The notes below the pieces were generated by a model, which saw nothing but the letters and a program-made list of their open reading frames with translations, did no database searches and had not been told where the DNA came from. Of a stretch of 64,000 nucleotides of DNA, positions 921-15,029 are shown piece after piece. The DNA is from Planctomycetales bacterium (lineage in GTDB: Bacteria > 4484-113): positions 62,001 through 126,000 of the forward strand of contig JAUWGS010000003.1 in assembly GCA_030606285.1 (NCBI GenBank), given 5' to 3'. Each line of letters opens with the position of its first letter. Position 1 is the stretch's first letter. The translations under genes and the position numbers were made by a program.

Positions 921-1316
921 ATGATGGTCTTTGAACCAAGAGTAGTCGTTGCCTGGTTCGCCACCTTTTTCGCGCTCTTTTTCGGCTTCCTCCTGATAGG
1001 TTTCTTCATCCCGGCGCTGGCCACGGTTGTCATCTTTGGCGCGGTCTTCGCCGCCGCCTACAACTTGTACATGGAGATGCCCGGCCGCAAAGAGGAGAAT
1101 GAACGTTTCATCCGTAAGTGGAGGGCGAATTTGGAAAGGCGCTGGGCTGAACGCCCAACAGTAGTTCGCTCGGTGACCTATTACATACGAATGGCGCCTT
1201 TTGAGCCAAGCGCGGCAATCGCTCTGCTGGTAGCACTCGTAGTACTTATCCTGGTCATCGCGCTTCTGACTATCTACCTCCCTTCTCTTATCATCGTCCT
1301 ATCCGAGTTGCGCTGA
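921..1316 (+). CDS. Small integral membrane protein, function unknown
   Basis: A 131-residue protein. Residues about 8-50 are strongly hydrophobic and could form two membrane segments (FFALFFGFLLIGFFIPAL, then VVIFGAVFAAAYNLY). A basic cytosolic-looking middle (GRKEENERFIRKWRANLERR) follows, then a C-terminal hydrophobic helix (ALLVALVVLILVIALLTIYL). It starts 19 bases after the CCA-enzyme gene and ends 18 bases before the PHP gene, so it is probably cotranscribed with one or both. I do not recognise the family. The topology is read from hydrophobicity only. Confidence 0.7.
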   Translation: MMVFEPRVVVAWFATFFALFFGFLLIGFFIPALATVVIFGAVFAAAYNLYMEMPGRKEENERFIRKWRANLERRWAERPTVVRSVTYYIRMAPFEPSAAIALLVALVVLILVIALLTIYLPSLIIVLSELR

Positions 1317-1322
1317 TATAAT
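1317..1322 (+). promoter_or_regulatory. -10 box before the PHP gene
   Basis: TATAAT at 1317-1322 lies 12 bases before the ATG at 1335, which would leave a leader of only a few bases. No Shine-Dalgarno sequence is seen. The -35 is weak. Confidence 0.4.
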
Positions 1323-1334
1323 TAGCGCGCTGAT

Positions 1335-2201
1335 ATGACCGACATAGGCTGCGATCTGCACTTCCATTCAACACACTCAGACGGACGCTACAGCCCCTCG
1401 CAACTGGCACGCCTTCTGAAAAGGCGCGGTATTCGCGTCGCCGCACTGACCGATCACGATACTTTTGGGGGCAGCCTAAAGTTCTTCGAGGAAGCGCTTC
1501 GCCTTGGCATCGTCGCGATTCCTGCGCTCGAACTGACCACGTGGCTCGAAACCGGCGGCGCAGGTGAAGAAGTCCACATTCTGGCGATGGGTCTGCGCAT
1601 TGACGAGAAGCTTGCGCATGGGCTCGCGCAGATTAAGCAGCAGCGAAACGAGTTGCAGGTGAGAATCTGCGAGCGGCTGCGCACCGAGGGTTACAGCTTC
1701 GACTTCGAACGACTCCGGCGGAGAGCAGAGCCGGACCCGGTCATGGTGGTCCACTTCGTCTGGGACTATATGTTGCGACGCCCATTGTGGTCGGCCATAG
1801 GCCTGGCCACAGGCGGCGTCAGGCGCTGGTTCGACCGTTTCGAGAAAGACACTTATGGGCCCGGTGGCAAGGCATACCTGCCACCGCCGCTGTCGTTTAC
1901 TGAGGGAATCGCTTGGGCAAGGCGCCACGGCGCGCTGGCGGTTGTCGCCCACCCAGGAAAGATCGCGTCCTCAAAGGTGAGAGAAACCGCCCTCGCCGCC
2001 GACATTGACGGCATTGAGACATTCTATAAAGGGCAGGAGACGATGAAAGACGAACTGCTTCGGCTCGCCAGAGCACGCGGGCTCGTCACCACAGGTGGTA
2101 GTGACTACCACGGGTATTCCGGCCCGCCCTATTCGGGCTGGAAGATGCCGCAGGAGAACGTTAACGACCTGCTGCAACGATTGGGGCTGGCCCGCGTCTA
2201 G
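1335..2201 (+). CDS. PHP-domain metal-dependent phosphoesterase
   Basis: A 288-residue PHP-family phosphoesterase. Metal-binding motifs are in the expected order: DLHFHSTHSDG (residues 7-17), LTDHDT (38-43), a glutamate in IPALEL, VHILAMG, AHPGK (about 204) and GSDYHG near the C-terminus. The layout fits the TrpH/YciV group, whose characterised members hydrolyse nucleoside 3',5'-bisphosphates or trim 5' ends of RNA. The substrate here is inferred only. The gene converges on the amidase gene and the two stop codons share bases (CTAG at 2198-2201) inside a short hairpin. Confidence 0.85.
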   Translation: MTDIGCDLHFHSTHSDGRYSPSQLARLLKRRGIRVAALTDHDTFGGSLKFFEEALRLGIVAIPALELTTWLETGGAGEEVHILAMGLRIDEKLAHGLAQIKQQRNELQVRICERLRTEGYSFDFERLRRRAEPDPVMVVHFVWDYMLRRPLWSAIGLATGGVRRWFDRFEKDTYGPGGKAYLPPPLSFTEGIAWARRHGALAVVAHPGKIASSKVRETALAADIDGIETFYKGQETMKDELLRLARARGLVTTGGSDYHGYSGPPYSGWKMPQENVNDLLQRLGLARV

Positions 2202-2207
2202 CGCGGG
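2191..2207. terminator. Hairpin over two interlocked stop codons (possible bidirectional terminator)
   Basis: A perfect 6-bp stem CCCGCG / CGCGGG (2191-2196 and 2202-2207) with a 5-base loop that contains the stop codons of both convergent genes. There is no T-run on either side, so intrinsic termination is uncertain. Confidence 0.45.
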
Positions 2208-2656
2208 AGCCTCTCGGTCGGGAACTTCAGCCCTGGACAGCTTGTGCGTGACCCTCTCACTTCGCGGTGCAGCATAATTCGAGCCCTGGGATAGTGGCGG
2301 AGCAGTAAGCGGAGGAGTCCCGTGAGCGACTCCATCTGGGCATCAGTTGGCTCAGACCGGTTGAAGTCACCCACAAGACAGATGCCTACACCATCGAGGT
2401 TCGCCCCTCTCGCGTGGTAGCTCACTGTCGTGAGCGCATTAGTCTTGAAGATTACGCCGTCGGGCGAGACCACGTAGTGGTAGCCAATGCCGGGCCATCC
2501 GCGTGCGTGGACGTGATGCCAGGCGAAGGACTTCGGCGTGCCGCCGCGCGTGCCCGAATGATGCACAATGAGCTTATCAATGCTGCGCAGCGGCCTTGTT
2601 GCGTACTTCCTCGAGCGGCTGTGTGCCAGTTCGTCGCGGATGTCGACAATTCGCAT
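2198..2656 (-). CDS. N-acetylmuramoyl-L-alanine amidase, phage endolysin type (PGRP/Amidase_2)
   Basis: A 152-residue peptidoglycan amidase that would cut the bond between MurNAc and L-alanine. Visible family motifs: LIVHHSG (Zn ligand His), GIGYHYVVSPDG, the GANLDGVGICLVGDF core strand, and a C-terminal HREV...TSCPG containing the second His and Cys ligands. It resembles T7-lysozyme-size single-domain endolysins with no wall-binding module. I chose the ATG at 2656, not a longer upstream frame, because GGAAGGTGA precedes it and it begins 4 bases after the holin-like gene ends. It is the last gene of the phage-like cluster and would act in cell lysis. Confidence 0.88.
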   Translation of the reverse strand: MRIVDIRDELAHSRSRKYATRPLRSIDKLIVHHSGTRGGTPKSFAWHHVHARGWPGIGYHYVVSPDGVIFKTNALTTVSYHARGANLDGVGICLVGDFNRSEPTDAQMESLTGLLRLLLRHYPRARIMLHREVRGSRTSCPGLKFPTERLPR

Positions 2657-2660
2657 CCAC

Positions 2661-2972
2661 TCACCTTCCGCCGGCCTCGCGCCCACGGTTGAACTGCACA
2701 ACCAGCTCGCTGTTGCGCTGTATGGCCGTGCCCAGGCCTGAGAGCTCCCGCGAGACGCACTTCGCGGACTGCTCACCGCTCTCCTTCAACTCGCGCAGCG
2801 CTGCGAGGAACTCGCGCCTTTGCTCCTTTAGTTCCGCAAGGAACGCTTGGCGCTGCTGCCCGTTTTCCCTGGTCAGCGAGGGTATGATCACCCTCACAAG
2901 ATACCAGGCGAAGAAGAATGCCAAGCCTCCGCCTACGCCAAGGTTCCCAATGATGATTGGCCACTGCTCCAT
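2661..2972 (-). CDS. Holin-like small membrane protein of the phage-like cluster
   Basis: A 103-residue protein with one N-terminal membrane helix (residues about 6-31, rich in G, F and V: NLGVGGGLAFFFAWYLVRVI), followed by a long charged helical region rich in Glu, Arg and Lys that is probably coiled-coil. One membrane helix plus a charged tail is the layout of BhlA/UviB-type phage holin-like proteins. Its place directly before the amidase supports a lysis role. No sequence motif is decisive; a structural or tail-linked role remains possible. Confidence 0.6.
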   Translation of the reverse strand: MEQWPIIIGNLGVGGGLAFFFAWYLVRVIIPSLTRENGQQRQAFLAELKEQRREFLAALRELKESGEQSAKCVSRELSGLGTAIQRNSELVVQFNRGREAGGR

Positions 2973-2974
2973 AG

Positions 2975-3217
2975 CTAGGGCTTGCCCACGACAACTACCG
3001 CTTCAATCAGAAGATTGAGCAGGCTGTCTCGCAGATCATCCTTGTAGCGCTCACGGAAGCGTCTGAACACTTCACGGCGGGCTTCATCGCCAGCCAGACC
3101 CTCGGCGCGCACTTCGGCGACGATGGCCATAACGAGTTCAGCTTCCACCTCGTAGATGGCGAACAGTAGATTGAGAATAAACACAAGTATCTTCTTGCCA
3201 ATTCGCTTGAGCTCCAT
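2975..3217 (-). CDS. Small protein of the phage-like cluster, function unknown
   Basis: An 80-residue protein (start MELKRIGKKI). I chose the ATG at 3217 because a strong AAGGAGGAG lies just upstream; a longer frame to 3280 has no such signal. The N-terminus is hydrophobic (ILVFILNLLFAIYEVEAELV); the rest is charged and helical, with many Arg and Glu. It ends 2 bases before the holin-like gene, so the two are probably coupled. Its place between the fibre-like gene and the lysis genes is the only functional hint. Confidence 0.6.
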   Translation of the reverse strand: MELKRIGKKILVFILNLLFAIYEVEAELVMAIVAEVRAEGLAGDEARREVFRRFRERYKDDLRDSLLNLLIEAVVVVGKP

Positions 3218-3240
3218 GCTCTCCTCCTTGTAGTGAGCGG

Positions 3241-4038
3241 CTAGTCTGCCGCGAGTTCTATCCAGATAATAGCGGTGCACTCAGCGCTAAGAGCCGAGTC
3301 GGGTATTGACGCGGGAAGCTCAGTGGCGCTTCCGCTCTGGTAGATACCCGAGCCCGGGTAGTGAGCGCCGGGGGCTTCACACACTCCAAACCTGTAACCA
3401 TCCGATCCCGAGTACTTGTAGAGAAACGCCAGGAAATGCTGCCCCATCGGCAGGAGGACACTCGAGTCCAGAGCGAACCTGTGGACGTTTCCCGTGGCAA
3501 CCTGACTGAAATCGTTGAAACAGGGCGCTCCGAAGTGAGCCTCGCGCGTGAAGCCGTCATCACTTGCGTTGCGCTTGTACACTGCAACTTCGATAAGCGA
3601 CACCTGGTCGTCCGGGGCACCGTCGCGTTCTATCTGAAGGTAGTACGCGGCAACCTGCATACTCCCCGGCAGCTCTATCGGGTGCAAGTAGATGCGACTC
3701 CCCGTCAACGAAGCCGCAGTCGCGAGGGCAAGGGGAGTTCGCGGATTGGGACAGTACCTAAGGCGCGGAGCCGCCAGCGTAATAGTGTCAGTGGACTGGC
3801 TGGCCACAAGCCCATCGCCACCAGCGATGTCAACATCCCCTTCTATGCCATCTCCACCGGGGACTGAAAGACTGCTCACTCCCCCGAGTTCGAAGTCATC
3901 GCCGCCACCCGGACCGCCGAAGTAGGTCGCACGTGCCTTCAGCTCGCTGTCCATGCCGGTGATGCGCCTTTTCTGCGCTGCAAGGCGCTCATCCACCAGG
4001 GACTTCAGAGTCTGCGGAAGGCTTACATTCTTGGTCAT
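3241..4038 (-). CDS. Tail fibre / receptor-binding-like protein of the phage-like cluster
   Basis: A 265-residue protein. Residues 1-35 are helical and charged (KSLVDERLAAQKRRITGMD), a Gly-rich linker follows (PGGDGIEGDVDIAGGDG), and residues from about 100 on look like a beta-sandwich, with alternating hydrophobic strands and a terminal IIWIELAAD. An N-terminal helical anchor, flexible linker and C-terminal beta domain are common in tail fibre or host-binding proteins. Its place right after the hub-like gene, with a 4-base overlap, supports this. There is no recognisable catalytic motif. Confidence 0.5.
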   Translation of the reverse strand: MTKNVSLPQTLKSLVDERLAAQKRRITGMDSELKARATYFGGPGGGDDFELGGVSSLSVPGGDGIEGDVDIAGGDGLVASQSTDTITLAAPRLRYCPNPRTPLALATAASLTGSRIYLHPIELPGSMQVAAYYLQIERDGAPDDQVSLIEVAVYKRNASDDGFTREAHFGAPCFNDFSQVATGNVHRFALDSSVLLPMGQHFLAFLYKYSGSDGYRFGVCEAPGAHYPGSGIYQSGSATELPASIPDSALSAECTAIIWIELAAD

Positions 4039-5948
4039 CGCAGAACCTCCGCGTTGTAGTCTGTTCCGAAGATGCGCGTACGAGTTGGCGTGAGTTCCAC
4101 GCGCTCCACGAGGAACGCCTGATCATCGCCTGTTACAGGATGGGTGCAGGACACCGTGTCGCCGACACGAACTGTAGGATCGGCGATACACACGGCTTCG
4201 TAGCCAAGGTAAGCGTAGAGTGACTCTTCAAGCAGGTCCCGTGCGAGCTTCAGTGCTTCGCTTTCCGGTAGTTCATCTCCGACTTCAACCGTGAGCACTT
4301 GCGGCCCCGCGCCGTCTGTCTTCTCGAGCAGCTCCGGATAGTAGTAAGGCTCACCAGGATCAGTCCCCTGCACAGCCGCTTCCACAACGAAATCGTCTTC
4401 GCCAAAGATGCGTATCTCGTTTAGCGCCAGGCCTGGATCGCTTTCGTTGCTCACGCCGTCCTTGGCCGGCTTCACGCGAACCTTAACGTAGCGCATCCTC
4501 CGCATTGTCAGATTGGTCAGCAGCGCTTCAGCCAGCGGCGGAAGCAGCAAATGCGCATCAGGCGAGACCCGCTCGTAATCTATGTCGTCGGTGCTTCCCA
4601 GAATCTCATAGCCGTAGCTGAACTTGCTGTTGGCTGACTTCTGGCTGTTAACGTTCTTGGAATTGGAGGCGACGATTCCTACAGCGCTGACCCGTGGTGG
4701 CTGTCCGTTCTCGTCCAGCCCCAAGTCGTACTTGGCAAAGTCGTAGAATTCGTACGAGTATGGCGCATCGTGACGCCCGAATCCCCGATTGCTGTCACCA
4801 TCGCAGGTCAGAGCAACCGAGCCCTCGCCGAAGTGCTTCTCATTGCCGTTCCATTCGTATTTCTCGCCGACGCCAGCCTGCAGGTCTGTGACCGTCGCGT
4901 CAAGGGCGAGATTCAGCGGATTCGTGCGGACACCATGCACAACGACCCGCGTGTAAATGCGCTCTCTTGTGCGGCTTCGCGCAAACGACGAAACGTTGAT
5001 GAGTGACCGCGACGGCGTCTCCTCCTGCTCCAGTAGTCTGTGCGTGTACTTGCCCGCTTCACTGTCATAGTGGAAGCAGTAGTTGCGTGGCAGCCTGTCG
5101 GCAATCCTGGAAACGCAGTCCGAAGTACGCCCATCCCCGCGCTTCCATTCAAGCACATGCAGGTCGACGTCTATGTCGGGCAGGCAGAGTTCACCTACAG
5201 CCGCCCCCACACCGCCATCGTCATTGGGGAATTGAAGGCCCACTGCCACAGCCTCCGCCGCGTCACTAGTAGCCTCGATATAGCAGCGAACGCCACTGAC
5301 CACAGGGGATGCCGGCAGCGGGTCAAGGAACTTCACCACGCCACTCATCGGATAGACGCGATAGAAGTCAGGCGAGACCTCACTCCCGTCTTCGTACACC
5401 CTGATGTCTCCAGGCCTCCAGGCGCGCCTTTTCCCTTCACTGGAGAAACCCAGAGGTGTAACGTTGGGGTCAAAGCCATAGGTGTGGTCGTCGAACTCGC
5501 CAGCGAGAGCTGTGAGCGGTGCGTTTTCAATCTCGTCTGTTCTGTCGCCTTCTATCTCCACAGCACAGACGGTGCGCGATAGCTTTAGAGCATGGTCGCG
5601 CGCAAATACGCGGATGTACGCGCCATCTTCACGGATTTCTGTTACGAACCCGCGAAAGAGCGTTTCGCTCTCCCCTGCCACCTCACATATGAGCTTGACT
5701 TCCGAAAACAACGCCAGGACGTTCTCGGGGTCAAGCTCGGCGAAGTGCGCGTTGTCGCTAGCGGGGATTGTGAACTCCAGTGATGCGGCAAACTCGGTCC
5801 GGTCGTTGATCAGTACGAAGCCATCGCTGGCCAGTTTCAGCTCGATCCAATCGCCGCCTTCAGGATGCGAATTGCGCGCAAGAAGCGTGTAGCAGACCTG
5901 CTTGTTAAGCTGCTGAAGGTGCTGGCGGGCAGTCTCCGTGAAACCCAT
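4035..5948 (-). CDS. Large tail-tip / baseplate hub-like protein with a discoidin-like insert
   Basis: A 637-residue protein, the largest in the phage-like cluster. Residues about 1-150 and the last 80 (VRVGDTVSCTHPVTGDDQAF, ending RIFGTDYNAEVLR) have the look of tail-hub or tail-associated proteins, in which an OB-like domain is split around an insert. The middle (about 380-520) contains YEFYDFAKYDLGL, RMRYVKVRVKPA and LALNEIRIFGED, which resembles an F5/8-type C (discoidin) sugar-binding fold. This suggests a tail tip that also binds cell-surface glycans. It overlaps its neighbours by 1 and 4 bases. The assignment rests on position and fold-like features, not on a clear motif. Confidence 0.55.
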   Translation of the reverse strand: MGFTETARQHLQQLNKQVCYTLLARNSHPEGGDWIELKLASDGFVLINDRTEFAASLEFTIPASDNAHFAELDPENVLALFSEVKLICEVAGESETLFRGFVTEIREDGAYIRVFARDHALKLSRTVCAVEIEGDRTDEIENAPLTALAGEFDDHTYGFDPNVTPLGFSSEGKRRAWRPGDIRVYEDGSEVSPDFYRVYPMSGVVKFLDPLPASPVVSGVRCYIEATSDAAEAVAVGLQFPNDDGGVGAAVGELCLPDIDVDLHVLEWKRGDGRTSDCVSRIADRLPRNYCFHYDSEAGKYTHRLLEQEETPSRSLINVSSFARSRTRERIYTRVVVHGVRTNPLNLALDATVTDLQAGVGEKYEWNGNEKHFGEGSVALTCDGDSNRGFGRHDAPYSYEFYDFAKYDLGLDENGQPPRVSAVGIVASNSKNVNSQKSANSKFSYGYEILGSTDDIDYERVSPDAHLLLPPLAEALLTNLTMRRMRYVKVRVKPAKDGVSNESDPGLALNEIRIFGEDDFVVEAAVQGTDPGEPYYYPELLEKTDGAGPQVLTVEVGDELPESEALKLARDLLEESLYAYLGYEAVCIADPTVRVGDTVSCTHPVTGDDQAFLVERVELTPTRTRIFGTDYNAEVLR

Positions 5949-6400
5949 CAGTTCCTTCCCCGCCAGATTACGCTGCCGAGCTGCCCATAATCAATGAAAA
6001 CGCCGTCGTCGAGAATCAGCGCGGCAATCCTGATTGTCTCCCGGGCTGCCAGCTCGCTTATGTCCTCGTCGGCAAGGAGCGCGGGCGAAGCTTCAGTAAG
6101 AACCAGGCTGTATGCCAGACCTGTGCTCTCAACAAACGCTGTGACGGTGCCACCCGACTCGAGGTACTCCAGGCATCGTTCCCGAAGCGTTCCCACATTA
6201 ACGCCGGTTACCCCAAGCTGCGCCGGGGGAAGAGTGATGTGCGCTATTACCGGATAGCGCTCGCTTGCGAAATTCACCTTGTGCACATTTCCTGCAAGAT
6301 CGGTGGCGACTGCGAAACCCACGCCATGCTCCGTCTCCAGTGCCAGCGGAAACACATCTATCGTGTCGTCAACCGTAGGGCCAAACCAGAGTCTCAGCAT
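5948..6400 (-). CDS. Distal-tail-like protein of the phage-like cluster
   Basis: A 150-residue, beta-rich protein (LRLWFGPTVDDTIDVFPLAL near the start, GSVIWRGRN at the end). It lies between the short tape-measure candidate and the hub-like gene, where siphovirus-type clusters carry the distal tail protein. A strong GGAGGAG lies 6 bases before the ATG at 6400. There is no sequence motif, so the function is inferred from gene order. Confidence 0.5.
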   Translation of the reverse strand: MLRLWFGPTVDDTIDVFPLALETEHGVGFAVATDLAGNVHKVNFASERYPVIAHITLPPAQLGVTGVNVGTLRERCLEYLESGGTVTAFVESTGLAYSLVLTEASPALLADEDISELAARETIRIAALILDDGVFIDYGQLGSVIWRGRN

Positions 6401-6961
6401 CTACTTCTCCTCCGCGATTGAACGTGCCAGCATTCCCACAAGCTCCCGCTCAAGCCGGTCATCGCGCTCTGCACCCGGCGGAATGAGACGCGTGCGCTCA
6501 GCGAAACGGGGGAAGCCTCCGTACGGACGCTCTTCCACCTCCGGCAAGTCAAGCCTGCGTCTTTTAAAGAGCCTGGTGATGGCAGCGAAACCTGCGTCCA
6601 GCAGTGCCAGCGCTCCGCCGCCCACAAGGCTGGCCAGCAAGCCGCCACCCAGCTTGCTGGCGAGCAGCTTCTCCAGACGCCGGCCCGCAGCTCGCTCCAC
6701 CTGTCGCACCGCTGTTCGCACCACGACATCTAGGCTTTCGCCGCCCGCAAGCTGATAGCCCGTCCTGCGTGCCAGCGATTCAAGGCTTATGCCGAATAGG
6801 GAGTCAATGCTGGGTCCGCGCAGGCCACCTGAGCGTAAGGTTTCCCCGGAACTTCCAGTGACCCGAGCCCACAACTCACCCAGGCGCTGCGAGAGTTCTC
6901 CGACGCGCAGCGCCAGGTCGTCCAGCTCTTCTTGCGTGTTGTCCTTGAACAGCAACGACAT
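6401..6961 (-). CDS. Very short tape-measure-like tail protein candidate
   Basis: A 186-residue protein. Residues about 8-35 form a heptad-like helix (QEELDDLALRVGELSQRLGE). Residues about 95-135 are hydrophobic and Gly-rich (LASKLGGGLLASLVGGGALA) and could cross a membrane, and the C-terminal third is charged. A helical body plus a Gly-rich hydrophobic segment, directly after two chaperone-size ORFs, is what a tape-measure protein looks like, but it is far shorter than the usual many hundreds of residues. I chose the ATG at 6961 because it follows GGTGA and begins 1 base from the preceding stop region; a frame to 7039 overlaps the upstream gene. Confidence 0.5.
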   Translation of the reverse strand: MSLLFKDNTQEELDDLALRVGELSQRLGELWARVTGSSGETLRSGGLRGPSIDSLFGISLESLARRTGYQLAGGESLDVVVRTAVRQVERAAGRRLEKLLASKLGGGLLASLVGGGALALLDAGFAAITRLFKRRRLDLPEVEERPYGGFPRFAERTRLIPPGAERDDRLERELVGMLARSIAEEK

Positions 6962-6962
6962 A

Positions 6963-7208
6963 TCAGTCACCAAACATCCGTGAGAACAGTGCAGCGTCGC
7001 GACTCGGCGACTCGCCAAGCCGCTCTTCTGCTTCGCCATCTTTCACGCTTTGGCTGAGTTCGTCGAGCAGCATCGCAGCATCCGCCGACGTAAGACGGTG
7101 CATGACTTCCGTCGGAGTCATCCCAAGGGCGAGCGCCAGCTTTGCGACAAGCCTCGGGAGTTCGTCCTTCAGCAGTAGACCCCAGCCGGCAAGTGCCAGT
7201 TCAGACAT
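6963..7208 (-). CDS. Tail-assembly-chaperone-like protein, distal ORF
   Basis: An 81-residue helical protein (start MSELALAGWG, end FSRMFGD). With the preceding 139-residue ORF it forms a pair between the tail-tube gene and the tape-measure candidate, the position of tail assembly chaperones (the lambda G/GT or XkdN type). Its ATG lies inside the last codons of the preceding gene (8-base overlap), so it is translated by coupling or possibly by a +1 frameshift. No sequence motif is seen. Confidence 0.5.
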   Translation of the reverse strand: MSELALAGWGLLLKDELPRLVAKLALALGMTPTEVMHRLTSADAAMLLDELSQSVKDGEAEERLGESPSRDAALFSRMFGD

Positions 7209-7620
7209 CGCTCACCCCGTCAAGCCACGGCTTGAGTTTCTGTGGGGGCAACCGGGAGAACTCCTGCTCCCAGGCTTTGAGCAAGACTTGCACTGCATCC
7301 GCCGGTGCAAACTCAGAGAGCACCACGTCCGACGATTCACCTGTCAGTAACGAAAGCGCCTCGGCCAGTTCCTCGGGACTCCCATGGATTACCTTGAACA
7401 GCGCGGGAACCAGCGGCAGTTGCCTGAGCTGATCCCACCCGACGCGTTCTATCATCCCGCCGGCAAGGTCAAGTAGTAACAGAGCGCGGTGAAGGTTCAG
7501 TGGCCGCACACGAACGATGCGTCCGGAGCGCAGGGCAATCCGCGCGCCGGGACCCGCCAGCGGGAGATGAGATAACCGCTGCCTGATCCGCCTTAAGACA
7601 TCGCCTACGAGTACGCTCAT
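7201..7620 (-). CDS. Tail-assembly-chaperone-like protein, proximal ORF
   Basis: A 139-residue, mainly helical protein (LRRIRQRLSHLPLAG; later LFKVIHGSPEELAEALSLL). It follows the tail-tube gene with a 4-base overlap and precedes the 81-residue ORF. Gene order and size fit a tail assembly chaperone. Its last two sense codons and stop, GAT GTC TGA, overlap the ATG of the next ORF, whose frame is +1 relative to it. Confidence 0.5.
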   Translation of the reverse strand: MSVLVGDVLRRIRQRLSHLPLAGPGARIALRSGRIVRVRPLNLHRALLLLDLAGGMIERVGWDQLRQLPLVPALFKVIHGSPEELAEALSLLTGESSDVVLSEFAPADAVQVLLKAWEQEFSRLPPQKLKPWLDGVSDV

Positions 7621-8372
7621 GGGCGATTCTCCATCCTTGACATCATCTCGCCGTAAAACCTGACATATCCGAATGGCGAGTCGGGATGTGAGTCATCCGC
7701 CAGGCATCTGCCGATAAGTGGCACGTCAACCAGGTCTTCCGTTCCCGTGGCCAGCACGCCAGAAGCGTCCAGCTCCACTTGCCTTAGAAGAAGGACCATG
7801 AAGCTCTGACCGTCAGGATAGCGATGGACGGCTTCCAGCTTTGCCGTGACAGCGCTGGAATGCGCCAGTGGGACCTCGCGACCTTCAGGATAGTCGGTCG
7901 CGTACAAAACCTTGAGCAGTTGGCCTGGCTCAATGTTCCCGCTTGAGATGAGAGAGAACTGCCGATTCGCCCAGTCCGAGCTGTAGTCAACATCTTCAGT
8001 GTACAGAATGGAGCTATCCGCGCTTTTCACAAGTGGCGCAATGTGGGGAACGAAGCGTATTTGCGATGGCCGCTGTTCATAGAGCCGTATGTAGTCGGTT
8101 ACCCCGAGGTTGGCGGCGGTGAGGTGAGTGTTGGCGCCGCCCGCGAAGAAGGACACAGCAGCCGGGCTCAGCTCTTTGAAGCGCACTTCCAGCGTGAGAG
8201 CGCGACGAAGGGGCACGAGGTGCCGTGCCGCCAGCTCTCCAGCTACAGACTGCTCTACGGCCAGGCGCTCGACCACCTTGTGCAGTGTAAGTCCGACGGC
8301 GAGACCCATGTGCTGGTCATTCAGATAGATCTCAGAGTCGCCGAGTGTGAGTGCATAGTAGTTCGTTGACAT
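7617..8372 (-). CDS. Major tail (tube) protein candidate
   Basis: A 251-residue protein with alternating short hydrophobic strands (YALTLGDSEIYLNDQHMGLA; YVRFYGEMMSRMENRP at the end). A beta-rich protein of this size, between the head-tail completion genes and the chaperone pair, is best explained as the tail tube subunit. It overlaps the following gene by 4 bases. A function other than tail tube cannot be excluded by sequence alone. Confidence 0.55.
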   Translation of the reverse strand: MSTNYYALTLGDSEIYLNDQHMGLAVGLTLHKVVERLAVEQSVAGELAARHLVPLRRALTLEVRFKELSPAAVSFFAGGANTHLTAANLGVTDYIRLYEQRPSQIRFVPHIAPLVKSADSSILYTEDVDYSSDWANRQFSLISSGNIEPGQLLKVLYATDYPEGREVPLAHSSAVTAKLEAVHRYPDGQSFMVLLLRQVELDASGVLATGTEDLVDVPLIGRCLADDSHPDSPFGYVRFYGEMMSRMENRP

Positions 8373-8381
8373 AGCCCCTCC

Positions 8382-8819
8382 TCAACTCATGGGCAGATTC
8401 AATGCAAGCGCAGTCGCTTGCACGACGTGCACGGCCAGTTCAGGGTGGTCTTGCAGGTGTAGCTCCCGGCTCGTGATGTCGCGCAAAGCGACATAGTCAA
8501 TCGGATCGTCAGCAGGTTCGCGCGGATAGAAGTACCGGGGAATCGTGAAGCCCGGGCCGGCTGAACGCAACACTGTCAGCGCTACAGTTGCCAATCGACG
8601 TGCAATATGGGTCATGTCGCCGGACGCCAGGCAGTAGATGGTGAAGCGCGCACCGCTGAGTAAGCCTTTAGGCCGCACACTCGCTTCTCGCTGCTCTCGC
8701 CATACGACGCGGAAGCATGGAAAAGCTGCGTCCTGTTCCTCTGTAAACGCGATCTCACCGTAACTAGCGAGCTTGTCGGCAAGCCAGAGGTTAACACTGT
8801 ATATGGTGTAGAGGATCAC
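8382..8819 (-). CDS. Tail-completion-like protein of the phage-like cluster
   Basis: A 145-residue protein starting at a GTG (8819) that overlaps the upstream stop as GTGA, with AAGGAGG 8 bases before it; the longer frame to 8900 lies inside the upstream gene. The sequence (ILYTIYSVNLWLADKLASYG; FPCFRVVWREQ; HIARRLATVALTVLRSAG) has the strand-helix pattern of siphovirus tail terminator or completion proteins. The position just before the tail-tube gene agrees. The function is inferred. Confidence 0.5.
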   Translation of the reverse strand: MILYTIYSVNLWLADKLASYGEIAFTEEQDAAFPCFRVVWREQREASVRPKGLLSGARFTIYCLASGDMTHIARRLATVALTVLRSAGPGFTIPRYFYPREPADDPIDYVALRDITSRELHLQDHPELAVHVVQATALALNLPMS

Positions 8820-9211
8820 GCGATCAGCCTCCTTGCCAGCACGAGTTTGAGCGGCTCCAGGCCAAAGACTACCGGGGACTGCATCCGCACGACCTCCCAT
8901 TCGGCGCCTTCGAAGTAAAGATGGCTTCCAATCTCCACTGGATTGCTGCCGTGAATGACTAGTTTCTTAAGGCCAACCTGATCCCGATAACCCGCGAGGA
9001 CCTCACGTAGACCCTCCCCGCTACCGCTGTCAGCACTGAGCACAAGCGGCGTGGGTACAAGCTCCGTGTCCTCATATGGCCCAATAGGAGGCTCGCCCGC
9101 TTCCGGCAGACCGCCCGAAAGCTCGCGCGTCCGCAGGAAGACCGGCGTGCGGCTTCCGCCAAGATGTCGCAGTAGCTCGCTGAATACCCTTGATAGTTCT
9201 TGCTTGGCCAT
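8816..9211 (-). CDS. Head-tail joining-like protein
   Basis: A 131-residue protein with a helical start (MAKQELSRVFSELLRHLGG) and beta-rich remainder (VIHGSNPVEIGSHLYFEGAE; GLEPLKLVLARRLIA). Head-closure proteins between the connector and the tail-completion protein often have this size and composition. It overlaps the next gene by 4 bases and starts 1 base after the preceding gene. There is no diagnostic motif. Confidence 0.45.
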   Translation of the reverse strand: MAKQELSRVFSELLRHLGGSRTPVFLRTRELSGGLPEAGEPPIGPYEDTELVPTPLVLSADSGSGEGLREVLAGYRDQVGLKKLVIHGSNPVEIGSHLYFEGAEWEVVRMQSPVVFGLEPLKLVLARRLIA

Positions 9212-9212
9212 T

Positions 9213-9797
9213 TCAGTGCGGGTAGTCTTCCCTCAGCGGCACAGGCATCCGGTAGCCACTGGATAGCTGGTCGATCTCCGCTTGCAGACGTTCGCAGACC
9301 TTCGTCAGGTCTATGCTCATTCCTGAGAGGTTCGTGCGCAGCGCCAAACGCGCTCGAGCTGCCCGGACCAGGCCGAGGAGCTCAACAAGTACGGACCGCA
9401 GGTCTACCAGATATGTCTCAACAGTCACCGCTGCGTCTTCCACCGACAGCATATTGAAGATCACGCGTCCTCCGTACGTGTCCACAATGTCATCCTGCGT
9501 AGGTGCATAGCTTACGCCGTCAATCGCCAGCGCATAAGCGTCGTCAAGCCAGTTCCCGACACCCGCGTAATACGCGCCGTCGACATTTACCAATCGCCTC
9601 AGGCGTATCCGCAGAAGACCTGCGTTCAGCTCCTGATAGTCCACGCCATTCTCAGCGAGGTGCTGCGCAAGACACTTCGTGACCTCGTGCTGAACGTGAA
9701 TCGACAGTAGCGCTTTGAGTTCTTCATCTGAGAAGAGTGGATCAGTCTCGTTGCGCTCGCCGCAAAAGACCCGGATGTATTCGAGGTTGGTGTTCAT
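9213..9797 (-). CDS. Head-tail connector-like protein
   Basis: A 194-residue helical protein (EYIRVFCGERNETDPLFSDE, followed by several amphipathic helices). Helical proteins after the capsid gene commonly form the connector (adaptor) ring under the portal. It overlaps the preceding gene by 4 bases. The assignment is by order and composition. Confidence 0.45.
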   Translation of the reverse strand: MNTNLEYIRVFCGERNETDPLFSDEELKALLSIHVQHEVTKCLAQHLAENGVDYQELNAGLLRIRLRRLVNVDGAYYAGVGNWLDDAYALAIDGVSYAPTQDDIVDTYGGRVIFNMLSVEDAAVTVETYLVDLRSVLVELLGLVRAARARLALRTNLSGMSIDLTKVCERLQAEIDQLSSGYRMPVPLREDYPH

Positions 9798-10075
9798 GGT
9801 TCTACCTGTTCGCAGTACGATGGGGCAAGTTTACGGACTTCATAGCCCTCGGCCGCAAAGCGCACCGCGGCTACCGCGCCGACCTGAGATACGCCGTTCT
9901 CGAACCAGTGTCCCATCTGTGGACCGGTGTAGCGACGGTTTCGCAGCGTCACTTCGAAAACGCTTTCGTCCAGGTCCAGGGCATGCACGAGCTCGTCGAA
10001 CATCTGGCGGCTTTCCGCCTTAGAATGGCTGACAACCGTGCATGCCAGACGCACATAGCCGCGGGTACGCTCCAT
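9794..10075 (-). CDS. Small protein between capsid and connector genes
   Basis: A 93-residue protein (start MERTRGYVRLA, end KLAPSYCEQVEP). GAGG lies 8 bases before the ATG at 10075; an ATG at 10081 is possible but only 2 bases from the same signal. A longer frame to 10150 would overlap the capsid gene. The alternating strands could suit a head-decoration or head-completion protein. It is not recognised by motif. Confidence 0.5.
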   Translation of the reverse strand: MERTRGYVRLACTVVSHSKAESRQMFDELVHALDLDESVFEVTLRNRRYTGPQMGHWFENGVSQVGAVAAVRFAAEGYEVRKLAPSYCEQVEP

Positions 10076-10088
10076 GGTCATAGCCTCG

Positions 10089-11000
10089 CTACTGGTGAAT
10101 GCCCCGCAGACGTGCAGCGGACTTCGGGTTGAAGAGGGCAAGCCCGACATACCACTCGATCAACGTGCGATAGACCGGTGGATTCGCGATGAGCCCCATG
10201 TCCTCAACCTGGATGCCGCCGTTGCTCAGGCCGCAGACGAACTCATCAGCGCCGAATCTCGCCGCATAGATGCTTGAGCACTCCGTTTCGGTGCCTACTG
10301 TCTCGTCGAATCCCAGGATGTCCTCGTCGTTGTTGTCCTTGTCCACAACCTTGACGGGGATGCCATCGTAGTACGTGTGAACCTTGCCCCCGTCGTCCAT
10401 CTCGACAACGATCAGCTCAGTCTCCCGCCCAAGCTGTACCAGCTTGCGACGGTTGGCCTTGCTCAGATAGATCACGTCCGGGCCTCCCCAGACTGAATCG
10501 ATTAGCTGGTCAATGTACGCAAGCGAGAGCACATCACCGTTACCACCGCCATCATCGGCAGTGGAAACCTGGTCGCCGGTGAGTCGCTTCTGAAGACCGT
10601 CAAACGAGTTCGGGTCGACAGAACTGTCACCTTCGAAGAACTCCCGGGTGAAGGCCAGCGCAAGCGACTTAACCTTCAGGCGAGTCTGCAGTGCGCGCAG
10701 GTCGTTGATCGAGCCGCGCACCTGCTGCAGGTACCGGTCCACGTCCACAACGCCACCGAAGATAACCAGTGATTCACTGGCATCGGTGACCGTGCCTGTG
10801 CTCTCGGTGTAACTCGAGTTCACAGCGCGGAACTCCACGTCGGGCAATGTACCTTCCAGGTTGTAGCGGTACGAGTTACCTTGTACATCCATAAACGGAA
10901 GATCTTGCAGGACCGGGGAGTACTCGCCGAACGTTTCAATGACGCCACGGCGCAAGTAGTCAGTTTCCAGTTTGGCTGCCTCAGCCAATGTCAATGCCAT
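10089..11000 (-). CDS. Major capsid protein (HK97-fold type)
   Basis: A 303-residue protein. The N-terminal helix (MALTLAEAAKLETDYLRRGV), the early DLPFMDVQGNSYRY segment, the long central helix near ALQTRLKVKSLALAFTREFF, the IYLSKANRRKLVQLG segment and a C-terminal LIEWYVGLALFNPKSAARL match the pattern of HK97-fold capsid proteins that act without a fused protease. It follows a short acidic scaffold-like ORF and the portal gene, as expected. This is one of the two firmest phage assignments here. Confidence 0.78.
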   Translation of the reverse strand: MALTLAEAAKLETDYLRRGVIETFGEYSPVLQDLPFMDVQGNSYRYNLEGTLPDVEFRAVNSSYTESTGTVTDASESLVIFGGVVDVDRYLQQVRGSINDLRALQTRLKVKSLALAFTREFFEGDSSVDPNSFDGLQKRLTGDQVSTADDGGGNGDVLSLAYIDQLIDSVWGGPDVIYLSKANRRKLVQLGRETELIVVEMDDGGKVHTYYDGIPVKVVDKDNNDEDILGFDETVGTETECSSIYAARFGADEFVCGLSNGGIQVEDMGLIANPPVYRTLIEWYVGLALFNPKSAARLRGIHQ

Positions 11001-11014
11001 TTTTCTCTACCCTC

Positions 11015-11299
11015 CTAAGTGTGGGGTGAGCGCACACCATAGCCAAGCCGCAGATAGTCGCTGGCGGAGAGGTGCGTATGCCCGGTCTCCACCCTCGGAC
11101 TCTCCCGTCGCGCGGGGAACGCTTCCGCGACGCGCTTCTCGACTTCACTCCGAACGAGTTCCGCGATAATTGCGTCCGTCGGGGTTTCCCGCTCCGGCTC
11201 AGTCTCTTCAGTCAGAGCTTCATCTGACGGCTCGTGGTGTGCGCCCGTATCTGTTTCGTTTTCTTCCAGCTTCTCGTTGATCTCCATCGTCTCTTCCAC
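11015..11299 (-). CDS. Short acidic scaffold-like protein
   Basis: A 94-residue, very acidic protein (EINEKLEENETDTG; EALTEETEPERETP) with a basic C-terminal part. It starts at a GTG 5 bases after AGGAGG. Acidic, helical, low-complexity proteins between portal and capsid genes are usually scaffolds that guide capsid assembly, but most are longer. No protease gene is seen. The role is inferred from position and composition. Confidence 0.55.
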   Translation of the reverse strand: MEETMEINEKLEENETDTGAHHEPSDEALTEETEPERETPTDAIIAELVRSEVEKRVAEAFPARRESPRVETGHTHLSASDYLRLGYGVRSPHT

Positions 11300-11308
11300 T
11301 TCGGCCTC

Positions 11309-12688
11309 CTAGTGTTCGTCGAGCTCAATCTGGCCAGACTCGGCCGCCAGCAGTTCTCTGCGTAGGCGCGTTAGTTTCTCCTGCTCGGTGAACTGTAGAT
11401 CGGGTGCATAGATCAGGCACGGCCTTGCGGTTTCCACCTCTTCCTTTGGGATGAGCCCCAGTTTGACTCCGGCGTCAAGCACGAGCTCCAGGAAGTCCTC
11501 CACCGAGCGACCGATCTCCCGCCTCTTCGCCCGCGCAGCGTTCAGCAGCGGTTCGTAGAGTATCGACAGCGCGAACCCTGACATTGCGCCCACGCTGGTC
11601 AGCTTGTCCGGACTGAGCATCACGACGCCGGTCAGGTCAGTGAGCGCCTGCTTCAGTTCGCTGATGTGAGACTGCACCGGTGCCAGATCGCTGTCGTTGA
11701 TTAGGTACTCCAGCTCCGCGTTGTCGCCGATGACGCTGACTATCTGCGTGTCGTCCAGCTGATCGCTGACGAGCCGCCCATTTATGTTTTTAAGGATGGC
11801 GTTCATCGTGCGCGAGATGTTGCGCGAGCGTTGAGCCATCTTCCAGTTCACGTCGTCAAGCAGCGGCGTAAGGTCCGCAAGCTCACTTACGCCGAACTTC
11901 ACGCCGAGTTGCGGACGGTTCCTGACGTGCACCGCGGGAATCCGCCCGAACGGGTGCGACACTTCTCGCTCGATTACGAGCAGCGGCTCTCGCTCCGGCA
12001 ATACATGCGACAACAGCGCAGGCAATAGCCGCTTCCCCGCAGGCTCTGACAGCGCCTCGTCGCGATAGTAGACCACGCGGTCGGGATGCAGCTCCTCTCG
12101 ATGGATCGCGCGTGCACCCGCGTCGTCATAGTATGTAAACTCTTCCCTGATGAAGCGGACCTCCGCCAGGTCACGTGGGCTGTGCTCGAAATCGAATTCC
12201 ACGGCGGGGATTACCGCAAATGTGAGCGGAAAGTCGCCGCCTGCCGTATGCTGCAACTTCAGGAGAACGTTCCCGAATAGCAGCGCTTCCCTCGCGACAG
12301 GAGTCAGCCTTGACAGGAATCGGGAGATACGGATGAAGTCCGCGAGGAAACGTTCGGACACAGTCTCCGAGCCTTCACTCACCACCTCAGCGTTAGGCCG
12401 CATTCTCACGCCGACCGCACGGTCGAAGCTGAACGACGCCAGCCGGTCAATCAGGAATCGCGCGTAGTTGATGTAGATGTCCGGCGGCGATACGCTTGTC
12501 GCATAGCCGTTTCCACTAGCCCACTCTGCGGGATGCCGGTAGACGTCCCCACTGTAGTAGTGGGCGTACAACCTCAACTTCGCCATCCGGGACTGCCGCT
12601 CTTCGCGCCCAGCCGCTGTATCGATATAGCCTCTCGACTGGCTAGTTTCGGAGACTCTTCGCAATTGTCGCAAAAGCGTCATCGTCAT
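11309..12688 (-). CDS. Phage portal protein (SPP1 gp6 / HK97-type family)
   Basis: A 459-residue protein. Residues 50-100 (YYSGDVYRHP, YINYARFLIDRLASFSFDRAV), the ALLFGNVLLKLQHT strand, the PFGRIPAVHVRN stretch and the helical middle (DVNWKMAQRSRNISRTMNAI; SGFALSILYEPLLNAA) match portal proteins of tailed phages. The portal is the dodecameric ring for DNA entry and exit. It is the first gene of the cluster, transcribed from a strong extended -10 promoter 55 bases upstream. No terminase gene lies beside it. Confidence 0.82.
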   Translation of the reverse strand: MTMTLLRQLRRVSETSQSRGYIDTAAGREERQSRMAKLRLYAHYYSGDVYRHPAEWASGNGYATSVSPPDIYINYARFLIDRLASFSFDRAVGVRMRPNAEVVSEGSETVSERFLADFIRISRFLSRLTPVAREALLFGNVLLKLQHTAGGDFPLTFAVIPAVEFDFEHSPRDLAEVRFIREEFTYYDDAGARAIHREELHPDRVVYYRDEALSEPAGKRLLPALLSHVLPEREPLLVIEREVSHPFGRIPAVHVRNRPQLGVKFGVSELADLTPLLDDVNWKMAQRSRNISRTMNAILKNINGRLVSDQLDDTQIVSVIGDNAELEYLINDSDLAPVQSHISELKQALTDLTGVVMLSPDKLTSVGAMSGFALSILYEPLLNAARAKRREIGRSVEDFLELVLDAGVKLGLIPKEEVETARPCLIYAPDLQFTEQEKLTRLRRELLAAESGQIELDEH

Positions 12689-12742
12689 AAATCCATTCTT
12701 TACCCAACCATCCCACCCATCCGAATCACACCGTCCATTTAC

Positions 12743-12751
12743 ATTATAGCA
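12743..12751 (-). promoter_or_regulatory. Extended -10 promoter of the phage-like cluster
   Basis: On the minus strand this reads TGCTATAAT, an extended -10 element, with no clear -35. The predicted start is about 47 bases before the portal ATG. Just upstream, GCGAAA (12759-12764) and TTTCGC (12786-12791) form an inverted repeat that could be an operator. Confidence 0.55.
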
Positions 12752-12844
12752 GGTTTTGGCGAAAAGCGGACACCTATTTGGCCACTTTCGCTAAATAATG
12801 GCAAATTAGCTTTGTCGACCTGCAAGCTCAATCAGGGCAGCACA

Positions 12845-12873
12845 TTGACTGTTACCCGTCTCATCGTTAACAT
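12845..12873 (+). promoter_or_regulatory. Promoter of the response-regulator gene
   Basis: TTGACT (12845-12850), 17-base spacer, TAACAT (12868-12873). The start codon at 12883 is 9 bases after the -10, so the transcript would begin at or next to the ATG. No Shine-Dalgarno sequence is present. Confidence 0.55.
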
Positions 12874-12882
12874 TGACCTGCT

Positions 12883-13824
12883 ATGGATTTTGCTCTCCTA
12901 CCCAAACGCATTCTAGTTGTGGACGACGAAGAGATAATCCGCGATGTTATCTCCAACAAGATCCAGAAATCACTCGGATATGAGGTTGTTGAGGCAGGAA
13001 ACGGTGTGGAAGCGCTCAAGCACGTTGAGGAGGCTATTCCTGACCTCATTGTCACCGACATCAAGATGCCCGAAATGAGCGGCATCGAGTTGTTGGGTGA
13101 GATCCGCAAGCGCCGCCTGAATGTGCCCGTGATTATCCTGACTGGCTACGGCACAATGGAAGATGCGATTTCAGCCATCCGGCTTGGTGCAAAAAGCTTC
13201 ATTAAGAAGCCGTTCGACATCAATGAGGTCATATCGCTCATCGAGAACATCTTCACGGTGCATCAGGAGACGGCGGATGTACAGGAAATCGTCCCATTTG
13301 TCCGCAGCCAGAGCTTCACCATACGCGTCCCCACCAACTACGTGTATCTTTCCAAGGTGATCAACTACGTCTTCGCTTCCGTTCGCGACTGCTGGGAGAT
13401 GGAGGGAGGCCAGCTCAACGATATCAAGGTGGCGCTTTACGAAGCCTTGCTGAACGCCTTTGAGCATGGCAATCTTCAGGTGGACAAGCGCGTGAAGGAA
13501 AGCTCCCTGATTCTCGGCCACAGCGTCTATCGCAAGTACCTGCTCGAGCAGATGGCTGAAGAGGAAAACAGGAAGAAAACTATTACCGTCTTCGTCTCGA
13601 TCGATCCGCTCCGCGTTGAGGTCCGAGTGCTCGACGAAGGATCCGGGTTCGACCACTCCTCCGTAAGCGAGCATCTCGACCCGGAGTCCTTTATGAAGAC
13701 GTATGGACGCGGACTTTTTTTAATCAAGAGCCTGATGGATGAGGTTTCCTTCAATGAGCGAGGCAATATGGTGACGTTCCTCAAGTATCGTCCTCGCGCT
13801 GCCGAGGGTTCCCGGGAAGAATGA
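12883..13824 (+). CDS. Response regulator fused to an anti-sigma-type ATPase (RsbW-like) domain
   Basis: A 313-residue two-domain protein. Residues 8-125 form a receiver domain: acidic pair D14-D15, phospho-acceptor D59 (IVTDIKMPEMSG), T88 and K110 (KKPFD). Residues about 140-305 form a GHKL ATPase of the anti-sigma kinase group: N-box ALYEALLNAFEHGN, G1-type DEGSGFD and GRGLFLIKSL. It would link phosphorelay input to partner switching or sigma-factor control. No histidine kinase is adjacent. It is transcribed away from the phage-like cluster and converges on the Ser/Thr kinase gene. Confidence 0.85.
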   Translation: MDFALLPKRILVVDDEEIIRDVISNKIQKSLGYEVVEAGNGVEALKHVEEAIPDLIVTDIKMPEMSGIELLGEIRKRRLNVPVIILTGYGTMEDAISAIRLGAKSFIKKPFDINEVISLIENIFTVHQETADVQEIVPFVRSQSFTIRVPTNYVYLSKVINYVFASVRDCWEMEGGQLNDIKVALYEALLNAFEHGNLQVDKRVKESSLILGHSVYRKYLLEQMAEEENRKKTITVFVSIDPLRVEVRVLDEGSGFDHSSVSEHLDPESFMKTYGRGLFLIKSLMDEVSFNERGNMVTFLKYRPRAAEGSREE

Positions 13825-13860
13825 GACTGACAAAAACCAGCCAGCGTTGACCGAAACAGG

Positions 13861-14991
13861 CTATCCACTTCTGAAGAAGAAGTAGATCATCAACACAACC
13901 AGCAGTGCCAGAATGAAGTTCAGCACAGCCGTAAGTGTCCTATCCAGGCGTAGTTCCGGGCTGACGCGAAAGACCTGATCAGCGAAGCGCATGGCCATTT
14001 CACGCTTCAGAAGCGGACGGTGGCACTTCGCGCAGATGAGGTTCTTCGGGTTGTTTGGAGTGCCGCAGTCAACGCAGTAACAGGTGTCACCTATCCCCTG
14101 AACCGGTGCAGCTTCGTCCTGGTCTTGCCTGGCTGCAGATGCCACTGTGCTCTCCGCTACCGGCACTTTTGCGTCCACCGCCAGCAGGTCCTGCTGGAAG
14201 TTGTGCGCATCCTGGTAGCGCTCTTCCGAACGCTTGTGCATTGCCCGCGCCAGCACCTGATCCATCGCTTCCGGTACTTCCTCTGTGTAGTGTGATGCCG
14301 CGGGCGGCGTGAGATTCACCACGTTGTACATAATGGCCGTGATGCTCTCACCATCGAATGGCTTGTGCTTCGTCGCAAGCTCGTAGAGAACTACACCAAG
14401 TGAGAAAAGGTCGGAACGTGGTGTTACCTCCCCCCCGCTCACCTGCTCAGGGGACATGTAGTTCGGCGTACCTACAACCGTTCCTGTACGGCTGATGGTG
14501 GCATCGGTCAGGATGCGTGCTATCCCGAAGTCCGCAAGTTTAACCGTCCCTGAAGGCAGCTTCACGATGTTCGCGGGCTTGATGTCCCGGTGGATCACGC
14601 CTGCACGATGGCACGCGTCAAGCCCTGCGAGGACCTGGACTCCTACGTCGACTATGTCCTCAACCGTAAACGACACTCCCATCGCGAGCAGTTCTTTCAG
14701 GTTTGGGCCATCAAGGAACTCCATCGCGATGTATTCCTGTCCCTCGTGGGTGCCGACCTCGCGGATCCCAACGATGTTTGCGTCCTCGATCGTCGTTAGA
14801 ATGTTGGCCTCCTTCTGGAAGCGCGCGAGCAGTTCGTCACGTTGCTGATCGGATAGGCTTGTGTCTGGATAGAACGCCTTCAGGGCGACGATTTCTTCGT
14901 CGCGCACATCCCGAGCACGGTACACCTTACCCATCGAGCCCTGCCCGATGAGTTCCAACAGCTCGAAATGCGCGATCCGTTCGTGCTCCAC
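13861..14991 (-). CDS. Membrane-anchored Ser/Thr protein kinase with zinc-ribbon domain
   Basis: A 376-residue Hanks-type kinase. Seen: Gly loop GQGSMGKVY (16-24), Lys38 (VALKAF), HRDIKPANI with Asp136, DFG (154-156), and GTPNYMSPEQ of the activation segment. After a linker, two CxxC pairs (CVDC and CAKC, about 306-325) form a zinc ribbon, and a C-terminal helix (LNFILALLVVLMIYFFF) anchors it in the membrane, with the kinase in the cytoplasm. It has no extracellular PASTA sensor. The GTG start at 14991 follows a TATAAT by 8 bases. Neighbours are signalling genes. Targets are unknown; the VWA protein at 20514 has candidate Thr sites. Confidence 0.9.
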   Translation of the reverse strand: MEHERIAHFELLELIGQGSMGKVYRARDVRDEEIVALKAFYPDTSLSDQQRDELLARFQKEANILTTIEDANIVGIREVGTHEGQEYIAMEFLDGPNLKELLAMGVSFTVEDIVDVGVQVLAGLDACHRAGVIHRDIKPANIVKLPSGTVKLADFGIARILTDATISRTGTVVGTPNYMSPEQVSGGEVTPRSDLFSLGVVLYELATKHKPFDGESITAIMYNVVNLTPPAASHYTEEVPEAMDQVLARAMHKRSEERYQDAHNFQQDLLAVDAKVPVAESTVASAARQDQDEAAPVQGIGDTCYCVDCGTPNNPKNLICAKCHRPLLKREMAMRFADQVFRVSPELRLDRTLTAVLNFILALLVVLMIYFFFRSG

Positions 14992-14999
14992 GTTAAAGG

Positions 15000-15005
15000 A
15001 TTATA
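15000..15005 (-). promoter_or_regulatory. -10 box of the Ser/Thr kinase gene
   Basis: TATAAT on the minus strand, 8 bases before the GTG start at 14991. There is no Shine-Dalgarno sequence between them, so a leaderless transcript is likely. The -35 is weak. Confidence 0.5.
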
Positions 15006-15029
15006 GCTCAGGAGGTGCTGTCGCGGTGC

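Follow-up and report, generated by a model that had tools for sequence, protein, structure and literature searches.

The window analysed here is a stretch of 64,000 nucleotides from a Planctomycetales bacterium (GCA_030606285.1, contig JAUWGS010000003.1, positions 62,001 to 126,000; G000:C27:62001-126000 in our numbering), a member of the scarcely studied GTDB phylum 4484-113, which corresponds to Candidatus Niteriota (PMC11382960). Between positions 2198 and 12688 it carries 17 open reading frames (ORFs), all on the minus strand, which form a complete siphovirus head-tail-lysis module set among chromosomal genes. An earlier sequence-only reading had proposed that this cluster is a gene transfer agent (GTA)-like or domesticated element that makes particles. 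Comparisons within the phylum concern ten genomes of the same class, in families f1 (G000, the source of the window, to G002), f2 (G003 to G006), f3 (G007 and G009) and f4 (G008). G001 is a congener of G000 (about 75% DNA identity).

At its amidase end the cluster adjoins a gene for a PHP-domain phosphoesterase (1335-2201, plus strand; the same neighbour is found in G001) and, at its portal end, a divergent gene for a response regulator with an RsbW-like ATPase domain (12883-13824, plus strand), both assigned with Pfam. As the sequence-only reading had described, the genes on both sides are host genes and the GC content of the cluster equals that of its neighbourhood. It was also right that no terminase, integrase, replication or immunity/repressor gene is present among the genes of 2198-12688, and in the order of the genes, which is that of a siphovirus. 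Its count of about 15 genes was too low, and its figure of 1 to 14 bases holds for the gaps but not for the overlaps, several of which are longer: the spacing of the 17 ORFs ranges between +14 and -116 bases. The cluster is not flanked by direct repeats of at least 11 bases, and no tRNA was found at it.

The first gene of the cluster encodes the portal (11309-12688; phrog_64, E 3.4e-24; SPP1_portal, E 3.8e-15), with orthologs in five further genomes of the phylum. It is followed by a small acidic protein (11015-11299) that is scaffold-like by position and isoelectric point (4.6), matches no family and has orthologs in G001 (61%) and G002 (33%), and by the major capsid protein (MCP; 10089-11000), which is of the BPP-1/epsilon15/JBD30 type (phrog_212, E 7.9e-81; GP7, E 2e-18). 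The MCP profile matches PDB entries 3j4u, 8cjz and 3j40 (the BPP-1, JBD30 and epsilon15 capsid proteins). Next come a small conserved protein (9794-10150; orthologs in G001, G002, G007 and G009), a connector-like head-tail protein (9213-9797) that is kept in six genomes, a head-closure-like protein (8816-9211) and a tail-completion-like protein (8382-8900). The last three are named by position and are without family match; the closure-like and completion-like proteins are likewise conserved.

The tail tube (7617-8372) is detected with phrog_807 (E 4e-4), and its AlphaFold model (pLDDT 72) matches the tubes of siphophages JBD30, YSD1 and Chi (best Foldseek E 1.7e-8 to 1e-7). A tail assembly chaperone (7201-7620; phrog_1442, E 7.7e-5) is followed by a second, small chaperone-like protein (6963-7208), conserved in position and weakly similar to the phrog_337 tail protein (E 0.027). 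Then come a short tape measure of at most 212 amino acids (6401-7039), which precedes a distal-tail-like protein (5948-6400) kept in six genomes and detectable in f2, the tail hub of 637 amino acids (4035-5948) and a fibre-like protein (3241-4038; conserved in f1, with traces in f4). The hub profile finds matches in all ten genomes of the phylum and in only 2 of 375 genomes outside the class. Searches of the PDB with the hub and connector profiles gave no match, and a fold search with the hub was abandoned because the model was too poor (pLDDT 53). The lysis end comprises a small protein (2975-3280) conserved in f1 and in f4 (G008, E 5.6e-15), with a weak match in G254, which represents another phylum, a holin-like small membrane protein with a hydrophobic N-terminus (2661-2972; 82% in G001, with an f2 relative in G004, E 9e-5) and an N-acetylmuramoyl-L-alanine amidase, the endolysin (2198-2776; Amidase_2, E 1.5e-21; phrog_822, E 6.6e-28).

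As predictions from these matches, the identities of the MCP, portal, tail tube and amidase are solid. The hub, distal tail, tape measure, closure, completion, connector, fibre and holin proteins are named from position, length and conserved order. The single promoter noted in the sequence-only reading also appears sound: an extended -10 element, TGCTATAAT, lies upstream of the portal (12743-12751, minus strand, read from 12751 to 12743) and has the same letters in G000 and G001, inside a conserved block. Its retention at about 75% identity between the species supports one predicted promoter for the whole cluster.

Portal and MCP genes are present in single copy in six of the ten genomes (G000, G001, G002, G007, G008 and G009; the G001 portal gene is divided between two contig ends). 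The order of the cluster genes is the same in all six, which represent three families, with the G008 cluster completed by a second contig. Since this order recurs in five other genomes, the cluster is a real unit, far above chance. In G001 it occupies the identical locus with both flanks kept. The tape measure is 166 to 212 amino acids long in five clusters, compared with 1320 in a prophage found within the phylum. The lysin gene at the cluster end of G009 encodes a CHAP-domain protein (L022:4687-5235) rather than an amidase and G008 has no lysin gene adjoining its cluster; the lysis gene has therefore been exchanged between families.

The gene trees follow the hosts. When compared with 40 viral relatives, the six MCPs form a single clade (100/99) and branch as (((G000,G001),G002),(G007,G009)),G008, which is the host taxonomy. 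Trees of the portal, tube and connector have this same topology, one of 105 possible unrooted topologies for six taxa; that of the distal tail deviates only in the placement of the long G008 branch, with weak support. Between G000 and G001 the ratio of non-synonymous to synonymous substitution (dN/dS) is between 0.03 and 0.35 for all 17 genes (for example, MCP 0.032, tube 0.057 and portal 0.088). The dS values of the cluster resemble those of the flanking host genes (0.5 to 1.6 against 0.4 to 1.9) and are high, which makes the individual ratios rough, but their direction is clear and all 17 genes, judged from these substitutions, are under purifying selection.

A search of the whole G000 genome identified a single large terminase (TerL) gene, of the phrog_2 type, at C26:236020-237447. 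This is at least 80 kb from the cluster on C27 (the two contigs are of 189,617 and 253,759 nucleotides). The terminase is thus unlinked rather than absent. Its motifs are intact (Walker A, GRRWGKT; Walker B, VFDEA; and the acidic motifs of the nuclease), and its neighbours, as named from their sequences, are a cystathionine synthase-like gene, lipoprotein genes and an amidohydrolase gene. Orthologs with 40 to 46% identity are found in G007, G008 and G009, all unlinked to the cluster, with host genes for cytochrome c assembly, a sigma factor and an SDR as neighbours and with both Walker motifs and those of the nuclease conserved. Their divergence is similar to that of the portals, which are 42, 37 and 43% identical to that of G000 in the same three genomes. 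The four unlinked TerLs form one group apart from viral TerLs (support 89/98; the branches are long). No phrog_2-type ortholog was found in the four f2 genomes. G009 also includes, on C48, a separate prophage-like run of genes that encodes a further TerL, different from the unlinked one.

The sequence-only reading had left the packaging enzyme as distant or absent and had asked for a search of the rest of the genome, for a fixed position in relatives and for purifying selection. The enzyme is distant, the selection extends to every gene, and the position is fixed in the congener but not between families. Neither of the two observations that it had named as fatal to its proposal, a terminase and integrase flanking the cluster or an empty locus in a close relative, was made. 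Together with the unlinked terminase and the shared locus, the selection supports its general proposal of a GTA-like or domesticated particle-making cluster.

We therefore consider it probable that the locus is a domesticated set of siphovirus structural and lysis genes which works like a GTA, with packaging by the distant TerL. We base this on a complete head-tail-lysis set without mobility genes, an intact unlinked TerL, gene trees that agree with host taxonomy, the locus shared with G001, low dN/dS and a short tape measure. In this scheme the single conserved promoter would drive one operon for a capsid, a short non-contractile tail and the lysis proteins; the distant TerL would package DNA, the simplest route being headful filling with DNA of the host; and the amidase and small membrane proteins would free the particles. 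The element would be passed on with the chromosome and would neither replicate nor integrate by itself. By analogy with known GTAs, we infer random packaging of host DNA and its delivery to other cells. A ComEC-type competence protein is encoded in nine of the ten genomes, which is permissive for DNA uptake, yet this is a widespread trait.

Using the definition of Kogay et al. 2022 (PMC9662315), three of six GTA-defining features are found: structural proteins derived from caudoviricetes (phrog_212, phrog_64, phrog_807 and phrog_822, and the tube fold), an endogenized genome, often at several loci (the C27 cluster and the C26 TerL, with no mobility genes), and mostly vertical inheritance with co-diversification (four gene trees and the congener locus). 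A further feature in that definition is that a GTA cannot package its own genome in full: the two loci here together extend over more than 90 kb, which exceeds a head of this capsid type as found in phages, though the head of this element may be of another size. The locus is GTA-like, not a proven GTA. An intact temperate prophage would include integrase, repressor, replication and terminase genes in one element, which is not what is seen, and an ancient, vertically inherited GTA-like element fits better than a prophage or a remnant.

A number of observations weigh against this interpretation. The f3 and f4 clusters sit among other chromosomal genes, so that position is fixed only at the genus level. 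Two genomes that have the cluster, G001 (88% complete) and G002 (77% complete), yielded no TerL. The region of the G000 terL is non-syntenic in G001, where other sequence lies at two contig ends. We had considered that the G001 terL is hidden in an assembly gap, but the flanks there carry different genes; it may be elsewhere, unassembled or lost. A candidate small terminase (TerS), the ORF upstream of the G000 terL, resembles the TerS genes of f3 at a level no better than chance to marginal (34 and 146 of 1000 shuffles), and its homology was rejected as not significant. It has no helix-turn-helix, while the TerS candidates of G007 and G009 have helix-turn-helix-like stretches; a GTA small terminase is described as having no DNA-binding domain (PMC11841831). 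Phages with this type of MCP have heads of about 40 kb, and the predicted head may or may not be of that size. Finally, particle formation, DNA packaging and transfer are predictions made from the genes.

The alternative that survives best, although we regard it as unlikely, is that the domesticated particle has another job, such as competitor killing, acting as a decoy or protein delivery, and does not carry host DNA. Structural and lysis genes kept under selection need not imply DNA transfer, and two of the six assemblies with the cluster are those in which TerL was not found. For a tailocin, a tail without head genes, the portal, connectors and capsid would be superfluous, yet portal and MCP are present and among the most constrained genes. 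In addition, each TerL found in these genomes fits the type of head present.

Much less probable is that these genes are parts of an active phage or satellite which spreads horizontally in the phylum and draws its terminase from a separate element. The different chromosomal sites in f1, f3 and f4 would be expected from such movement. It is at odds, however, with four gene trees that reproduce host taxonomy, one copy per genome, the identical G001 locus and the lack of bracketing repeats. Nor does any viral contig carry the cluster genes: those with MCP relatives show other cluster genes only as chance-level or partial traces. Least probable of all is a decaying prophage remnant that still looks intact, since, even though the cluster is without terminase, integrase, replication and repressor genes and remnants and GTAs resemble each other (PMC11841831), 17 open frames remain under purifying selection at a dS of about 1, over which time decay would be expected, and gene order is the same across three families.

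A second type of cluster is present in f2. We had supposed that the cluster was lost in this family, which was rejected when the hub profile located clusters with another head in all four genomes (G003:C5:13423, G004:C104, G005:C54 and G006:C205). Their tails (tube, a tape measure of 218 to 237 amino acids, distal tail and hub) are homologous to that in the window, with 31% identity for the hub. The head is of the Mu type (phrog_371 MCP, phrog_113 portal and phrog_976 protease), with a connector and a linked TerL (phrog_38), and a divergent regulator with helix-turn-helix and S24-peptidase domains lies alongside. No integrase was seen in the flanks, which were read by eye only. The f2 portal is under looser constraint than the window's cluster (dN/dS 0.35 between G005 and G006), as are four other genes measured (0.16 to 0.45). 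One f2 genome also contains an apparent prophage (G003:C47:62000-81999) with a Mu-type MCP, a tape measure of 1320 amino acids and a hub related to those of the f2 clusters.

In the hub tree the f2 hubs group with this G003 prophage and not with f1. Vertical descent of the f2 tail from an ancestor shared with f1 is thus unsupported, and a separate origin from a related phage appears more likely than common descent. The f2 clusters may be GTA-like or may derive from a prophage in some other way. A broader picture, which we find possible but would not favour, is that domesticated siphovirus particles are made throughout the phylum: each lineage would keep a single short-tailed cluster in which the tail module is related and the head/packaging module has been swapped between lineages (in f1, f3 and f4 a phrog_212 head with unlinked TerL, in f2 a Mu-type head whose TerL is linked). 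Were this true, the delivery tail would be the part of a GTA that is retained and the packaging head would be replaceable. In either case the f2 clusters provide a natural comparison for the parts of such an element that are kept and those that are replaced.

At 12883-14991 of the window, next to the portal gene, lie the response regulator gene, fused to its RsbW-like ATPase domain, and a gene for a Ser/Thr kinase; the portal of G001 has both as neighbours too. The regulator gene adjoins the cluster only in these two genomes and lies away from it in six others of the phylum. Because the regulator is thus conserved without the cluster alongside, a regulatory link is unproven. Outside the phylum, G254 includes a compact cluster of about 14 kb (C167, approximately 973-15227) with TerS-like, TerL, portal, protease, phrog_212-type MCP and tail genes, a tape-measure-like gene of 174 amino acids, a related hub and apparent host genes at both ends.

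The co-diversification within the phylum and the second cluster type with a different head are newly found here. Three families of a candidate phylum share a GTA-like element that has diversified together with them and that apparently had an independent origin; this would mean that phage-like gene transfer occurs in organisms known almost solely from metagenomes. GTAs are hard to distinguish from remnants by sequence. The combination of a conserved cluster, an unlinked terL and a short tape measure could serve as a rule for recognizing others.

Of the cluster genes that were compared with phage collections, the MCP alone has clear relatives in viruses (38 to 54%). It belongs to the same family as the MCPs of phrog_212/GP7-type phages (BPP-1, epsilon15, JBD30 and Paenibacillus phage Unity), and identities reach 51.5% with Paenibacillus phages and 54% with IMG/VR contigs. 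These, however, are complete phages whose portals and hubs are not closely similar to those of the cluster. Viral portals reach at most about 28% identity, over parts of the protein, and searches of INPHARED and IMG/VR gave no match for the hub.

To our knowledge, only three GTA families had been formally described by 2022, in alphaproteobacteria and a spirochaete, and the literature covered contains no report of GTAs in phylum 4484-113. RcGTA and its relatives (Rhodogtaviriformidae) likewise have a compact, siphovirus-like chromosomal cluster with vertical inheritance, purifying selection and a short tail. In RcGTA, terL lies inside the main cluster, which also includes a head protease. Five profiles from the window's cluster (MCP, portal, tube, connector and hub) gave no match to RcGTA structures in the PDB, and homology to Rhodogtaviriformidae was not found in this way.

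BhGTA (VSH-1, Brachygtaviriformidae) of Brachyspira hyodysenteriae, compared here by its description, offers a precedent for the unlinked terL: it too has a structural cluster without terL, the sole genomic terL lying outside (PMC9662315), and this Brachygtaviriformidae trait is present here. Like our element, BhGTA has co-diversified with its host and has few genes with phage relatives (PMC9662315). It differs in that it belongs to another phylum, while the MCP of the cluster described here has clear relatives among phages. In addition, synteny is lacking among the BhGTA homologs of different Brachyspira genomes (PMC9662315), whereas the present cluster keeps its gene order across families.

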